Assembly: GCA_002720855.1 (NCBI GenBank)
Contig: PBIN01000002.1
Location: forward strand, 81,930 to 145,929
DNA: 64,000 nucleotides
Source: Rhodospirillaceae bacterium
GTDB taxonomy: Bacteria > Pseudomonadota > Alphaproteobacteria > MPNO01 > UBA2964
Reading direction: 5' to 3'
Shown: positions 26,803 through 34,257 of the stretch, one piece after another
Layout of the letters: each line of letters starts with the position of its first letter
How positions within the stretch are numbered: the first letter of the stretch is position 1
The notes under the pieces: generated by a model
Told to the model about the DNA's origin: nothing
Database searches by the model: none
The model's input: the letters and a program-made list of their open reading frames with translations, nothing else
Translations under genes and position numbers: made by a program

Positions 26803-27480
26803 ATGAAAATTCGCGTTATTTTGACAGTTTTATCCCTTCAGTTTCTGGGGCTTAATGCCTCTGCCGGGATCATTTCGCTTACCCAACATGACATCATCAA
26901 TGAATTCGATGTTGCCAATTCCGGTTCGCTGGTCGTTGCCAATAGTTTAGGCAATGTCCCGATCTCTGGTACGGTAAATAGTGTGGTGTTTGGCGGCGAC
27001 CAGTCTGGCATTGGGAATATGGTCAATGGCAGTGGAAATTATTCTAACCAGTACGGCACGGCGACTGGACTCGATAGGATTCTAAGTAATGCGGTGCTGA
27101 CTGAAAATTTGGATCCGGGGACATTGACGCTTGGCGGTTTGACTGTCGGAAGGACCTATCGGTTACAACTTCTGTTTTCGAATACGCGAAACTCCATTGG
27201 TGATGATCAAAGAATTTCTCTGCTTGGCAGCGATATCGATATCGTTGACATGGGCAACCGTGGCATCAATGTTGTCGCCGAGTTTACGGCGGATACAGTT
27301 TCATTGCTGACGTCGTTTACTGATCCGGTGAACATGGCTGTTCTAAATGCGTATGCGCTGCACGATGTGACGCCAGCGTCGGCACCGGGGACCATAGCGA
27401 TCTTTGGCCTCAGTGTTTTCGGCCTCGGTATCGCCCGTCGGCGGCAGGACGAAGCGGCGCTGAAATTACGAAAGTCCTGA
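26803..27480 (+). CDS. PEP-CTERM-like protein with variant Ser-Ala-Pro-Gly motif
   Basis: The 225-residue product has a signal peptide (MKIRVILTVLSLQFLGLNAS, cut near Ala-Gly). The beta-rich body ends in ASAPGTIAIFGLSVFGLGIA, RRRQ and a short extra EAALKLRKS tail. Ala replaces Glu in the Pro-Glu-Pro position and the basic end is extended, yet helix and RRR are retained. It heads a two-gene unit (4 bp to the next gene) behind a sigma-54-type promoter. Confidence 0.8.
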   Translation: MKIRVILTVLSLQFLGLNASAGIISLTQHDIINEFDVANSGSLVVANSLGNVPISGTVNSVVFGGDQSGIGNMVNGSGNYSNQYGTATGLDRILSNAVLTENLDPGTLTLGGLTVGRTYRLQLLFSNTRNSIGDDQRISLLGSDIDIVDMGNRGINVVAEFTADTVSLLTSFTDPVNMAVLNAYALHDVTPASAPGTIAIFGLSVFGLGIARRRQDEAALKLRKS

Positions 27481-27484
27481 ATAT

Positions 27485-28396
27485 ATGGGATTTCGGCGCT
27501 CTCTGTATCGTGCTCTCATTGTCCTAAGCGTAACTGCGATAACCGCGACGCCGGCAAAGGCCGTTGTTGTTGCTTACGAGAACGATCAGGCGGGATGGTT
27601 GGCCGCTTCGGGATCGGTCAACACCATCGATTTTGAATCTTTCACCGGACAGTTGATTACTGGAAACGAATTTAGTGGGAATCCCGGCGCTCCTAATTTT
27701 GCGCTGCAGTCGGGGACATCTATGACATCCGACGGCGCAATTTCCGATTTTGTTCCAACGAGTGGCAGCAATACATTTTATACCACGACCAGCGGTACCG
27801 TTGCGAATGGCGTGATTAGCAATTTTGAAGATGTGATTATCGATACCGGTTCAAACGTCTCACTTAAAGGCGCATTGGATGCCGATGTGGCAGTAAATTC
27901 GGGCGCTACCGTCAGTGCCGGCAACTCGCCGGGTTTGCTCAACATCGTCGGGAATCTTGATTTAGGTGTTTCTTCGACAACACTGTTTGAATTGGCAGGT
28001 CTAACGCCTGGTGTTGAAGTTGGCGGTTATGACGTAATCGATGTTGCTGACGACCCGGGAACCGGAGGGACGACTGAAGGCGTCGCTACCATCGCCGGGG
28101 GCGCGATTTTCGATATCGACTTCTTTGCCGGTTTCATGGCTGGGTTGGGAGATACGTTTGATGTTCTGGTAGCTGATGCCATCAGTGTTGTCGATTTTGA
28201 TCTACTGGTCTTCGATTTCACGGATGCAGTCCTCGCCGCGAATCTCGGCTGGAGTAAGTCACTTCATGATCTTGGTAATGGTCGAAGCTCCGTGCGTATT
28301 GAGGTGGTGTCCAGCCAGGTGCCGGAACCGGGAACTCTGATTGTTTTCGGCTTTGGTTTGTTAGGTTTCGGATTCGTATCCCGTAGACGTCCCTGA
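27485..28396 (+). CDS. PEP-CTERM protein
   Basis: The 303-residue protein has a signal peptide (RALIVLSVTAITATPAKA) and a canonical tail VPEPGTLIVFGFGLLGFGFV plus SRRRP. After YENDQAGWLAASGSVNTIDF, common in PEP-CTERM proteins, it has TLDFEG-like strands and the passage NSGATVSAGNSPGLLNIVGN, an autotransporter/beta-helix-like GxSPG turn. Probably surface-exposed and anchored. It is 4 bp after the preceding gene and likely co-transcribed from the promoter at 26727. Confidence 0.88.
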   Translation: MGFRRSLYRALIVLSVTAITATPAKAVVVAYENDQAGWLAASGSVNTIDFESFTGQLITGNEFSGNPGAPNFALQSGTSMTSDGAISDFVPTSGSNTFYTTTSGTVANGVISNFEDVIIDTGSNVSLKGALDADVAVNSGATVSAGNSPGLLNIVGNLDLGVSSTTLFELAGLTPGVEVGGYDVIDVADDPGTGGTTEGVATIAGGAIFDIDFFAGFMAGLGDTFDVLVADAISVVDFDLLVFDFTDAVLAANLGWSKSLHDLGNGRSSVRIEVVSSQVPEPGTLIVFGFGLLGFGFVSRRRP

Positions 28397-28475
28397 CAGT
28401 ATTGTCCGGTTGAGGTCGCCTTTGGCTGGATGATAACCTCCGCGGTAAAGAAAAATCGTTGCGGAGGTGCTATCG

Positions 28476-29627
28476 ATGGTTTCAGCCGAAATTTCCTACG
28501 ACAATGCGCCTGTACCGGTCCGCGACGATATTACGTCTGCCCATCGTCGCGCTTGGAGTCACATTGCGTCACCTGGAACATGGCTGGATGGTAAAACGCG
28601 GGTGGCGATTGCCGCAGAGACGCGGAACGCTGCTGCATGCACCATTTGTAACCAAAGAAAACAGGCCCTGAGCCCGTACGCCATTGAGGGGATGCATGAC
28701 GGACTGGGTGAGCTTCCGGAAAATTTTATTGAGGTCATTCACCGGATCGCCACCGATCCTGCGCGGCTGACGGAGACATGGGTAAAGTCTATGCTCGACG
28801 GCGGGATACCGGATACCGAGTATGTCGAATTGGTGTCAGTTCTGGCTCATACGATGTGCGTTGATACGTTCTGCGATGGTATTGGCATTGAACGGCATGC
28901 GTTGCCGGAGCCGCAACCGGGCACGCCGACCAAAAAGAGACCGGAGGGTGCATCGGTTGACGTCGCCTGGTTGCCGACTGTGCCGCCCGAAATGGCGACC
29001 GGCGATCTCCAGAAAATTTACCCGAGTGGTATCGGCGATGCGCCTAACGCGCCAAATGTTCGCCGTGCGATGAGTTTGGTGCCGCAGGAGGCGATCAGCT
29101 TCTTCGCCCTCAATGATGTGCAATATTTGCCGCCGGAGGCGATGTGGCAGGTTGAGGTCAACCCACGATCCATAGAAAAGGCCCAAATCGAGTTGGTGGC
29201 AGGACGCGTGTCCTCCCTCAACGGGTGTTATTACTGAACGGTTAGCCATACCGACAGGCTCCGTGCGAGCCTGCAAAGCGAAGACGATCAGCCAGATCTG
29301 TCTGTCGTGAATGGCGGAGATGATGGCGCAAATATTCCGCATGCGCCGTTGTTTGTGTCCTTTGCGGAAGCTGTTGTTGGCGGAGACCGCGACGCAATTT
29401 CCGATGCTCAAAAAGCTTTGTCGGGACAATGTGGTGCGGCTGCAGCGACGGACGCGGCCGCGGTGGCGGCTTTGTTTAATGCGATTAACCGCGTCGCTGA
29501 CGCCATCGGGATTCGGGTCGAGGAGTCGAAGGAAGAACGCACCGCCTATTTTCGCGAGGCACTCGAACTCGATATCTATCAGACCGCCCGAATGGAAAAG
29601 CGCGTTGCCGGTGCTGGTAACGCTTGA
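28476..29627 (+). CDS. AhpD-like two-domain selenoprotein (TGA at 29235 read as selenocysteine)
   Basis: The frame from ATG 28476 (GGAGG eight bases upstream) is open to 29627 apart from one TGA at 29235-29237, giving 383 residues with Sec254. Around the TGA the reading is Glu239-x11-Cys251-Tyr-Tyr-Sec254-Thr-Val-Ser-His258. This is the spacing of the AhpD core (Glu-x11-Cys-x2-Cys-x3-His), so TGA stands exactly for the second redox Cys. Codons after the TGA continue the same fold (FNAINRVADAIGIRV). A hairpin 17 nt downstream fits a bacterial SECIS. The N-terminal half has a second Cys55-x2-Cys58 (ACTICNQRKQALSP). AhpD-fold proteins are thiol-dependent peroxidases or reductases. Alternative: a pseudogene with a premature stop. 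Confidence 0.82.
29255..29273 (+). promoter_or_regulatory. Candidate bacterial SECIS hairpin
   Basis: CAGGCTC (29255-29261) and GAGCCTG (29267-29273) form a perfect 7-bp stem closing a 5-base loop CGTGC. The loop starts 24 bases after the TGA codon at 29235, inside the usual 16-37 base range. It has G as its second base and a central GU, as SelB-binding loops do. The hairpin lies within the coding sequence. Confidence 0.7.
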
Positions 29628-29661: not shown

Positions 29662-30282
29662 ATGAAGGCGTATCCCGGTAGTAAGATGCTCGATCAACTA
29701 AAGGCCAATAACCGCGCGTGGGCTGAGGGTAAAGTCGCGGACGATACGGCCTTTTTCAGTCGGCATGAAAACCACCAATCGCCTGAATATCTTTGGATCG
29801 GCTGTTCGGACAGCCGGGTACCGGCGAATGAAATCGTTGGGCTGGCGCCGGGTGAGTTGTTTGTACATCGCAACGTCGCTAATCAGGCACCGCCGTCGGA
29901 TATTAACTATCGCTCGGTTTTGCAGTACGCCGTTACCGAACTAAAGGTGAAGCACATTCTTGTCGTTGGGCATTACGGATGCGGCGGCGTTGCTGCATCG
30001 CTTCAGGACGGTCTGAGCGGACCGGTGGATCAATGGATAGACCCTATTCGTGAAGTTTATAAACAGCATCGTGCGGACCTTGATAAAGTCGAAGATGAAA
30101 AAGAGCGGCTCAACCGGCTGTGTGAACTCAATGTTATGCGCCAGGTGCAGAACGTTGCGAGCGATAAATACGTCCGCGATGCCTGGGAACACGGACAGGA
30201 AATAAATGTCCACGGCTGGGTCTACAATCTTGGTGACGGGTTGGTTACTGATCTCGACGTTACTGTCAGCCATTCGAGTTAA
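29662..30282 (+). CDS. Beta-class carbonic anhydrase
   Basis: The 206-residue enzyme has the zinc and catalytic residues Cys48-x-Asp50-x-Arg52 (IGCSDSRVPANE) and His104-x2-Cys107 (VVGHYGCGGVAA). It interconverts CO2 and bicarbonate in the cytosol. VHRNVANQAP and SVLQYAVTELKVKHILV are typical strands. The upstream part of the frame overlaps the AhpD-like gene and is not homologous, so I start at ATG 29662 (ATG 29695 is an alternative). It is 34 bp after the AhpD-like gene and may be co-transcribed. Confidence 0.92.
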   Translation: MKAYPGSKMLDQLKANNRAWAEGKVADDTAFFSRHENHQSPEYLWIGCSDSRVPANEIVGLAPGELFVHRNVANQAPPSDINYRSVLQYAVTELKVKHILVVGHYGCGGVAASLQDGLSGPVDQWIDPIREVYKQHRADLDKVEDEKERLNRLCELNVMRQVQNVASDKYVRDAWEHGQEINVHGWVYNLGDGLVTDLDVTVSHSS

Positions 30283-30561: not shown

Positions 30562-33500
30562 ATGGCGACATATACTGGAACTTCCGGCAACGATACCCTG
30601 ACAGGCGTTGGTTTGGCCGATGACATATTTGAAGGCCTCGGTGGTGACGACACAATCGACGGCGGCGATGGCATCGATAAAGCGATTTATAGCGGTAACG
30701 CGTCCGATTACTCCGTTACCTACAATGCGGCGACAGACGAATATAGGATAACCGACAACCGGACCTCATCGCCTGATGGTGTCGACGTTCTACAGGACAT
30801 TGAACAGATAGAGTTTGGTGACGGCACTTTAATCGAAGGTGGTGATCCACTTGTTGCAGCTGACAGTATCATTGAAGTGCCGGTCTCAGGCACGGCGGAT
30901 TGGAAGCTGACGGGCTCAGGCGGATTTGGCAATCTCGTCTATTCGATTGATGGCGTCTCGAAAACGACCACTCATAATGGCGATGATTATTACCAGCTGA
31001 CGACCGCTGCGGGGGCGACGGTTAAAGTCTTTACCGACGGGACGTATGAATACGATGCGACCTCAACTCAGGGACAGGACAGCTTTACCTACACGGTTAC
31101 AGATGAGTTCGGTATTTCAACAACCGCAACGGTGCACGTTGGTGTAGGTCAAGATGTCCAAGGCGAAACCGAAATTGGGAAGGGGATTACCTTCGATGGT
31201 GTTGATGACAAGCTCACTAGTACCTTTTCTGAGGTTGGTGATGACCAAACAACTTGGACTTGGTCAGGTTGGGTAAAGCGGGACGGTTTGGATGTTACGC
31301 AAACCTTGTGGGAAGTCCGCGATGACGGAAGCAACTATAGTTTTATTCGTTTTGATCAGGACGACACCATACGCGTCTCTGCCGCTGATGGCGGAACGGT
31401 GACCTACCGAAAAAATACGACAACAAAAATCGAAGACACCGATTCATGGCATCACATTACGGTTTCTGTCGACACGAATAAGGCTCCTACTGGAGATTGG
31501 GTTGAAGTAACGATCGATGGTGTATTGGAGAGTTCGTATACGAATGTAACCAATCCAAGCACTGGTTATAAGAGCCTGATGAACTCTGCCAGGGATCATC
31601 TCATCGGCGGGAGCGATGCTAATGTTTATTACGAAGGCTCCATGGCGGATATACATTTCATCGATGGTCAGGCTCTCGGTCATACGTCTTTCACGCAACT
31701 CGACAGCAACGGCAATTTGGTTGGTAGGGAGTTTGATGGCACGTATGGAAAAAACGGTTTTCGGCTTGATTTTTCTGATGAGAACGATCTCGGAAGTGAT
31801 GTTTCAGGAAATGACAATGATTTCACGGTTACCAGCGCACCACAGCAAATAGAAGATATACCTCAAGACGCATTTGCGACGCTTGATCCATCCAACGCGA
31901 CATTGGGCGAAGGCAGCACAATCGCGAGCGGTGATTTGCAACTGCGTATCGACACTCAATCTTCATATTTCGATGGGGTGATGGCCAAACAAGTTGTGAC
32001 CGACAAGAGCTATTGGGAAGTAACGGTTACCGATGGCGGTAACGACGCTGTTTCTGGACAAATTTGGCTCGGCGTTCTGCACGCCGATGAAACGATGGAT
32101 ACCAATCAGCATCATCCTGGTGGGGCATACGGTGCCGACAGTATCGGCATTGGAACAGGTCTCAGGATGAAACGCGATGAAGTGCTTGGTACGGACTATC
32201 CCGATGTTATGAATGACGGCGACGTCATGATGTTTGCCTATGACAATGGGAGTCTATGGATTGGCAGAAACGGAAACTGGTTCGGCGGCGGCGATCCGGA
32301 GGCGGGAACAAACGCGGTGGCCACCGGGATCACCCATGAAGTCATTCCCGCTGTTGCCGGGTATCAGGCGTGGCCCGGCCTCGTTAATTTGGCCACGTTT
32401 AATTTTGGACAATCAATATTTGAACATGGTCCGCCTGCGGGCTTCGGATCATTTTATGAAGCTTATGATCCACAATGGACTGCGGGCAATGACAGTTTAG
32501 AGGGAGGATCGGGAGATGATATTCTGGGCGGTGGCCTTGGCGACGATATCCTGATTGGAAATGCAGGCGACGACACGCTGAATGGTGGTGAAGGTTCAGA
32601 CACTGCGAGCTATGAGAACTCGACCGTGGCGGTGACCGTCAATCTCGATACCGGTGTTCATTCGGGAGGCGATGCCGCTGGTGACACTCTGATCAGTATC
32701 GAGAACCTTATCGGGTCAGATCACGTTGATACGCTGACAGGTGATTCCGGTGACAACACAATACAAGGACTCGATGGCGGTGACACCATTGACGGTGGTG
32801 CTGGCAGCAACGACACCGCGAGTTTTGAAAGCTCGGATGAAGGTGTCGATATTACGCTTACCAGCGGTGCGGCATCGGGAACAGCAATTTCCGGCGGCCA
32901 TGCAGATGGTGACAATTTATCGGGTATCGAGAACCTCATTGGGTCTGACTTTGGCGATGAGCTGAGGGGAGATGCCAATGACAACGTCATTTACGGCCTT
33001 GATCATCACGACGATATCTATGGCGGCGATGGCAACGACACGCTCTATGGCGGCGGCGGTATCGACTATATGTATGGTCAAAACGGCACCGACACGCTGT
33101 ATGGCGGAGACAACTTCGATCAAATGTCTGGGGGTAGTGGAGACGATACGCTCTATGGCGGTGGTAGCGGTGACAAGATATACGGCGATGCCGGTGTGGA
33201 CAGTATCTTCGGTGAAGACGGTGACGATCATCTCCTCGGCAATGACGGTGTTGATAGTCTGGCCGGCGGGGAAGGCGACGACCTGCTGATGGGCGGTGAT
33301 GACGGTGATACCATCAATGGTGGCAATGGTAGCGATACCGCTTCTTACAAATACTCCGATGCGGGGGTATGGGTTACGCTTTCTAACGGAGCTGCCTCAG
33401 GAGGTGCCGTTTTATACGGGTATGCGGCCGGCGATACCCTGGTTGATATTGAGAACCTAACCGGCTCGGCCAATTACATTGATGTTTTAACGGGTGATGA

Positions 33501-34257
33501 TGGTGTCAATGTCATAGAGGGTCTCGGTGGAGACGATAATCTTTATGGAGGCGCGGGCAATGACACGCTTGAAGGTGGCGATGGATCGGACGACCTGTTT
33601 GGTGGTGCCGGGGATGACACGCTAGATGGCGGTGCCGGGAATGCTGACTGGGCGAGTTATTACGATGTTACAGGTTCGATTGGTGTTACTGTTGACCTGG
33701 GCAACGACGGGGTCGATGTCGGCGCAGGACAAGGTGCGGACACATTTCTCAATATTGAGAACCTTAGAGGTACAGTGAACGCCGATGATCTTACGGGTGA
33801 CTCTGGTGCCAACCTATTTTGGGGTGAAGATGGGAATGACACGATTGACGGTGCTGGCGGTAATGACATTCTCCACGGATCAAACGGAGACGACACTCTT
33901 GAAGGTGGCGATGGCGCAGATCAACTCCACGGTGGCAATGGTGACGACACGTTAGATGGTGAAGCCGGAAATGATCGCCTCATCGGTCGCGAAGGTACAA
34001 ATCAGCTTACCGGCGGGGCGGGGGATGATACCTTCATCTTTGGTGACTTCGGTGCAACAGATACAGTTACTGATTTCAATACAGGAAATAATAAGCTGGA
34101 TATTAGTGCATTTGATTTCGCGGATGTCGAGGCTGTCAAAGCGGCTTCGAATAATAGCGGATTAAATACAACGATTACCCTCGACGATACAGGCGATACT
34201 GTAACGCTCCTCGGGGTTCAGAAAGAGGACTTTGTATCTGGCGACTTCATATTCTAG
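30562..34257 (+). CDS. RTX exoprotein with LamG-like and SPRY-like modules
   Basis: The 1231-residue acidic protein has no signal peptide. Residues 1-35 and about 645-1190 are made of nonapeptide calcium-binding repeats (GGxGxDxLx, for example LTGDSGDNTIQGLDGGDTID), read by type I secretion systems. Residues about 95-200 form a VCBS/cadherin-like strand region (TYTVTDEFGISTTATVHV). About 205-425 form a LamG-like lectin domain (MADIHFIDGQALGHTSF, FRLDFSDENDLGSDVSGNDN). About 440-640 form a SPRY-like domain (YWEVTVTDGGNDAVSGQIWL, NFGQSIFEHGPPAGF). The LamG-SPRY pair resembles modules of phage tail proteins. The C-terminus ends DTVTLLGVQKEDFVSGDFIF, a T1SS-type tail. It probably binds glycans outside the cell. 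Confidence 0.88.
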   Translation: MATYTGTSGNDTLTGVGLADDIFEGLGGDDTIDGGDGIDKAIYSGNASDYSVTYNAATDEYRITDNRTSSPDGVDVLQDIEQIEFGDGTLIEGGDPLVAADSIIEVPVSGTADWKLTGSGGFGNLVYSIDGVSKTTTHNGDDYYQLTTAAGATVKVFTDGTYEYDATSTQGQDSFTYTVTDEFGISTTATVHVGVGQDVQGETEIGKGITFDGVDDKLTSTFSEVGDDQTTWTWSGWVKRDGLDVTQTLWEVRDDGSNYSFIRFDQDDTIRVSAADGGTVTYRKNTTTKIEDTDSWHHITVSVDTNKAPTGDWVEVTIDGVLESSYTNVTNPSTGYKSLMNSARDHLIGGSDANVYYEGSMADIHFIDGQALGHTSFTQLDSNGNLVGREFDGTYGKNGFRLDFSDENDLGSDVSGNDNDFTVTSAPQQIEDIPQDAFATLDPSNATLGEGSTIASGDLQLRIDTQSSYFDGVMAKQVVTDKSYWEVTVTDGGNDAVSGQIWLGVLHADETMDTNQHHPGGAYGADSIGIGTGLRMKRDEVLGTDYPDVMNDGDVMMFAYDNGSLWIGRNGNWFGGGDPEAGTNAVATGITHEVIPAVAGYQAWPGLVNLATFNFGQSIFEHGPPAGFGSFYEAYDPQWTAGNDSLEGGSGDDILGGGLGDDILIGNAGDDTLNGGEGSDTASYENSTVAVTVNLDTGVHSGGDAAGDTLISIENLIGSDHVDTLTGDSGDNTIQGLDGGDTIDGGAGSNDTASFESSDEGVDITLTSGAASGTAISGGHADGDNLSGIENLIGSDFGDELRGDANDNVIYGLDHHDDIYGGDGNDTLYGGGGIDYMYGQNGTDTLYGGDNFDQMSGGSGDDTLYGGGSGDKIYGDAGVDSIFGEDGDDHLLGNDGVDSLAGGEGDDLLMGGDDGDTINGGNGSDTASYKYSDAGVWVTLSNGAASGGAVLYGYAAGDTLVDIENLTGSANYIDVLTGDDGVNVIEGLGGDDNLYGGAGNDTLEGGDGSDDLFGGAGDDTLDGGAGNADWASYYDVTGSIGVTVDLGNDGVDVGAGQGADTFLNIENLRGTVNADDLTGDSGANLFWGEDGNDTIDGAGGNDILHGSNGDDTLEGGDGADQLHGGNGDDTLDGEAGNDRLIGREGTNQLTGGAGDDTFIFGDFGATDTVTDFNTGNNKLDISAFDFADVEAVKAASNNSGLNTTITLDDTGDTVTLLGVQKEDFVSGDFIF

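Follow-up and report, generated by a model that had tools for sequence, protein, structure and literature searches.

An AhpD-related selenoprotein of the NF041238 family with a predicted sestrin-like two-domain build in a Rhodospirillaceae bacterium

The window, meaning the whole 64,000-nucleotide stretch of contig PBIN01000002.1 analysed here, carries what is, on well-supported evidence, a real selenoprotein gene of a known family, whose two-centre, sestrin-like build is a point of mild interest. An initial annotation had proposed an AhpD-like selenoprotein whose centre is Cys-x2-Sec, and this proposal is upheld by the family match, the selenocysteine machinery of the genome, the conservation of the internal TGA, covariation in the hairpin that follows it and selection on the sequence. 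The gene and a paralogue in the same genome are well-supported additions to a selenoprotein family of unassigned function, for which the sestrin-like architecture offers a first mechanistic picture. The relevant features, all on the forward strand, are as follows.

28463-28467 (+): Shine-Dalgarno-like GGAGG, 8 nt 5' of the ATG (from sequence)
28476-29627 (+): AhpD-related selenoprotein gene (NCBIfam NF041238), 383 residues, Sec at 254 (E 5.1e-133)
28638-28649 (+): N-terminal Cys55-x2-Cys58, located at the turn and in helix 2 of the N-domain helix-turn-helix (homologue conservation, model, hhalign)
29190-29249 (+): C-terminal AhpD centre Glu239-x11-Cys251-x-Tyr253-Sec254-x3-His258 (invariance; Pfam CMD at 223-271)
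29235-29237 (+): in-frame TGA, predicted selenocysteine 254 (one TGA per copy, 48/48 class copies)
29255-29273 (+): predicted SECIS hairpin CAGGCTC-CGTGC-GAGCCTG (four-fold-site constraint, predicted fold, covariation)
29662-30282 (+): beta-class carbonic anhydrase gene (PF00484), 34 bp downstream (E 1.1e-52)

The gene and its family

The gene consists of 383 codons and a stop, its terminal TGA lying at 29625-29627, and the ribosome-binding site ahead of its ATG is judged good. Codon 254 is the sole internal stop of the frame. As first described, this single TGA falls exactly on the second Cys of a Glu-x11-Cys-x2-[Cys]-x3-His motif in an otherwise open frame. An ORF caller using table 11, where TGA is a stop, splits the gene at this codon, and naive annotation yields a 253-residue protein and a leftover ORF.

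The protein matches NF041238 over residues 15-369, scoring 443.7 bits where the cut-off is 175. This is a full-length match with the CxxU at the same place, and residues 251-255 read CYYUT, a CxxU followed by Thr like the CFYUT of the family name (AhpD_rel_CFYUT); the Tyr in place of Phe is the only difference. The true AhpD model (TIGR00777) gives 23.5 bits, far below its cut-off of 191.95. According to a 2026 review of prokaryotic selenoproteins, NF041238 corresponds to "hypothetical protein 1" in the Sargasso Sea selenoproteome (PMC13188914, Table 1); the 2005 Sargasso Sea paper had predicted that this is a redox protein containing CXXU and that its gene has a SECIS element (PMC1088965). 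Since NF041238 covers the family and can be traced to 2005, this kind of selenoprotein was already known; the gene is a fresh member of a catalogued family, and the high novelty implied at the outset was overstated.

The residues of the C-terminal centre are almost entirely fixed. In the family alignment E239, C251, residue 254 and H258 are invariant and Y253 is nearly so, while C251, residue 254 and T255 are invariant among 29 aligned members. The extra Cys-x2-Cys noted in the N-terminal half is also borne out, C55 and C58 being conserved in 33 of 37 homologues. One divergent subclade (L072, L072b, L073 and L074) has lost this N-terminal CxxC and kept the CxxU.

Evidence for selenocysteine decoding

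Five independent lines of comparative evidence make it well supported that the internal TGA is read as selenocysteine. The genome encodes the complete machinery that this reading calls for, namely selA, selB, selD and tRNA-Sec. On contig C15, selA (114421-115794), selB (115815-117692) and the tRNA-Sec gene (117772-117863, anticodon TCA; Rfam RF01852 was used in the search) are consecutive, and selD is present on the same contig as an oxidoreductase-SelD fusion.

Conservation of the TGA was assessed across a sample of 385 genomes from the same class, with family copies counted over E 1e-30 and sequence context taken from 37 distinct copies. All 48 copies contain exactly one in-frame TGA, and the residues downstream of it are conserved; one further locus (L024, in G003) was left unscored for the Sec site, its contig ending just before the codon. 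No Cys form was found over E 1e-30 among these 385 genomes. Selenocysteine is nonetheless not claimed to be universal in the family, because Cys-containing homologues were counted in the 2005 survey, seven from the Sargasso data and five from complete genomes (PMC1088965). Every one of the 27 genomes carrying the family is selB-positive, against 54 of 385 overall (Fisher p 8e-27, a value that does not correct for phylogenetic relatedness).

Comparison of the gene with two orthologues from the genus gives dN of 0.12-0.14 and dS of 1.6-1.7 for the 115 codons after the TGA, and dN of 0.10-0.11 before it. The resulting dN/dS of about 0.07-0.09 downstream is similar to that upstream, which shows purifying selection on both sides of the TGA, strong on its downstream side.

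A plain nonsense mutation, with the gene decaying and its downstream part a relic, would agree with the table 11 meaning of TGA and with the break made by the ORF caller, but it is rendered vanishingly improbable by the TGA in 48/48 copies, the downstream selection and conserved residues, the complete Sec machinery and the perfect nesting of carriers within selB-positive genomes. Neither a lack of machinery, nor a loss of downstream conservation, nor decay of the C-terminal part was found on examination. The TGA conservation, selection and machinery in practice rule out a pseudogene, and a recoded genome is rejected, as the gene itself ends in TGA and no part of the Sec machinery is missing.

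The SECIS hairpin

The 7-bp hairpin with its CGTGC loop, present as described 17 bases after the TGA, coincides with the predicted RNA fold. Its apical loop (CGUGC, 29262-29266) lies 24 nt after the TGA. The element thus has the form of a bacterial SECIS, a stem-loop just 3' of the UGA with a small, guanosine-bearing apical loop. Its folding energy (z -1.58) is only modestly unusual, and energy alone is not strong evidence. No Rfam SECIS family matches in the window at gathering score, and none matches the hairpin stretch by E-value.

The comparative evidence for the predicted hairpin goes far beyond chance. Variability was compared at 117 four-fold degenerate columns across 37 homologues; Sec+8, Sec+10 and Sec+9, all inside the hairpin, vary least. 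Pairing is kept at 86.6%, compared with 33-48% in slid controls. The hairpin shows compensatory changes: 15 cells carry double changes, and none of 500 shuffles, which are uncorrected for relatedness, reached its covariation score of 0.244. Pair columns 22/38 and 23/37 covary through C-G, A-U, U-G and G-C.

Predicted two-domain architecture

An AlphaFold2 model built with 29 family members (mean pLDDT 92.1, pTM 0.92) shows a helix-turn-helix in both halves of the protein, formed by helices 39-54 and 56-63 around C55-x2-C58 and by helices 235-248 and 252-265 around C251-x2-U254. The C-terminal one holds the relay typical of the AhpD family, consisting of Glu, Cys-x-(His/Tyr)-Cys and His. Aligning the two halves with hhalign pairs C55 with C251 and C58 with U254, a weak match (probability 16%, single-comparison E 0.0016). 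The two-domain form originally proposed is thus borne out by the model, hhalign and VIA-align as two AhpD-like domains, of which the N-terminal carries a Cys-x2-Cys of its own.

The top VIA-align match is Sestrin2 (Z 17.1, rmsd 3.2 over 239 residues), which aligns across both domains in the same order and spans model residues 1-347, in keeping with the tandem AhpD domains of sestrins (5t0n, 5dj4). Single-domain AhpD-like peroxidase-related proteins match only residues 161-358, with Z up to 14.9. In Foldseek these single-domain proteins come first (E 1.8e-3), with Sestrin2 close behind. The debrominase Bmp8 is also among the structural matches (Z 13.2).

The single-domain proteins (6k40, 2oyo, 2prr and 3c1l; TIGR01926) have the same fold as the C-domain (Z 13.6-14.9 on 161-358) and share its E-x11-C-x-Y-C-x3-H centre, but they consist of one domain with two Cys, whereas the window protein has an additional AhpD-like domain at its N-terminus and Sec in place of the second Cys. 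Also related in plan are the fused AhpD-dimer proteins of Corynebacterium ureicelerivorans and Comamonas aquatica and YciW, all with two AhpD domains per chain (PMC11429811). In the Corynebacterium and Comamonas fusions the active Cys pair lies in the C-domain, as it does here, but their N-domains are without Cys, in contrast to Cys55 and Cys58. None of these fused dimers, YciW included, is reported as a selenoprotein in PMC11429811.

In Sestrin2 the active Cys125 lies in the N-domain and the second Cys is replaced by Leu (PMC4674687), whereas the window protein has its complete centre in the C-domain and a CxxC in the N-domain. The sestrin C-domain motif has become a helix-loop, while the C-domain helix-turn-helix is intact here. 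This arrangement of the active centre, an identity of only 11-12% and the lack of any sestrin match in the sequence search argue against sestrin ancestry. Two-fold pseudo-symmetry and a likeness to the 2PRR dimer have been described for Sestrin2 itself (PMC4674687), and bacteria have further fused AhpD dimers (PMC11429811); the resemblance of the window protein to sestrins therefore shows a common AhpD pseudo-dimer plan and not descent. The window protein lets sestrins be compared with a bacterial AhpD protein of two domains. Neither the sestrin-like two-domain architecture nor the second CxxC is described in PMC1088965 or PMC13188914, and no open-access paper was found that joins the sestrin architecture with NF041238-family selenoproteins.

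Proposed mechanism and function

The gene product is very probably a soluble two-domain AhpD-fold selenoenzyme that works along the following lines. SelB carrying Sec-tRNA(Sec) would bind the hairpin just 3' of the UGA and direct insertion of selenocysteine at position 254. In the C-domain, Cys251 and Sec254 would form a redox pair, with Glu239, Tyr253 and His258 supplying the AhpD proton relay. Sec254 is the likely attacking selenolate, reducing an organic hydroperoxide, or else a peroxiredoxin or small disulfide, and Cys251 would resolve it as a selenenylsulfide. Cys55-x2-Cys58 of the N-domain probably moves electrons from a thioredoxin-like donor to this selenenylsulfide, and one chain may thereby replace an AhpD dimer.

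Peroxidase or thiol-reductase activity is suggested by homology. In Pseudomonas PA0269, which has weak peroxidase activity, the relay consists of E36, C48, Y50, C51 and H55 (PMC3141380); all five positions are kept in the window protein, matched one by one by sequence. The retained relay counts against a different reaction at the same catalytic Sec, such as reductive dehalogenation, thiol transfer or sensing. Such a reaction is a serious alternative, if short of an even chance: the AhpD/CMD fold hosts other chemistries, as in Bmp8; the two-domain AhpD-like YciW is linked to cysteine metabolism (PMC11429811); and the gene next to the family copy in G103 and G134 has a product whose thioredoxin-like N-terminus is fused to a domain that Pfam does not recognise. 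No conserved peroxiredoxin neighbour was seen beside family genes.

Within the preferred selenoenzyme reading, the electron route through the N-domain is tentative. The subclade that lacks the N-terminal Cys pair yet retains CxxU speaks against it, as does the weak alignment of the two halves. A stronger version, in which the protein is a bacterial "seleno-sestrin", a fused AhpD pseudo-dimer with Cys55-Cys58 as intramolecular relay to Cys251-Sec254 in a lineage strictly dependent on Sec and never using Cys, at least in Alphaproteobacteria, is speculative and rather unlikely.

Gene neighbourhood

The selenoenzyme had also been proposed to be coupled to the adjacent carbonic anhydrase. The neighbour itself is conserved in three genomes of the genus, that of the window and G007 and G011, but it occurs in no other homologue's flanks examined, being absent from those of the genus's second paralogue on C14 and of L022, the nearest relative outside the genus. 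Because the neighbour is conserved within the genus only, the case for functional coupling is weak. A role in a carbonic-anhydrase-linked pathway, which the same-strand position 34 bp away would favour, is accordingly quite improbable, the recurrent neighbours elsewhere being sel genes. The proximity of family copies to selB, within 5 kb in six genomes (G019, G196, G289, G366, G103 and G134), is more telling than the carbonic anhydrase.

The protein encoded directly 3' of the family copies of G103 and G134 (L082:490-2076 and L083:602-2185, both on the reverse strand) has about 529 residues; its thioredoxin-like N-terminus contains FVKEDCPTC, with the motif CPTC, and the unrecognised C-terminal domain is long. 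Further along the window, the product of 30562-34257 is 1231 residues long, with a LamG-like middle part and numerous GGxGxDxL-type (RTX-like) repeats, and PEP-CTERM-like proteins encoded at 26803-28396 adjoin its locus.

Paralogues and distribution

A peptide-pattern scan of genome contigs yielded only two close relatives. The window's own genome has a second copy (L019, G000:C14:825632-826681), which is 46% identical, has a TGA in a CAYU motif and lies in a different neighbourhood. The two copies fall into separate, well-supported tree clades, each with genus orthologues, so the duplication predates the genus. Across 398 genomes of a phylum scan the family appeared only in the window's own genome, and the viral contigs and plasmids searched contained no relative.

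Two side observations concern other selenoprotein genes. At L072 (G308:C9:214157-216428) two family copies stand in tandem, both with the TGA and both without the N-terminal CxxC. A deiodinase-like protein (PF00837, E 9.6e-23) encoded in the window's genome is a selenoprotein of another kind, with its in-frame TGA at SYT-U-PPF; its gene (L084:1157-1861, forward strand, on G000:C15) lies just upstream of selA, 5' of the selA-selB-tRNA-Sec cluster.
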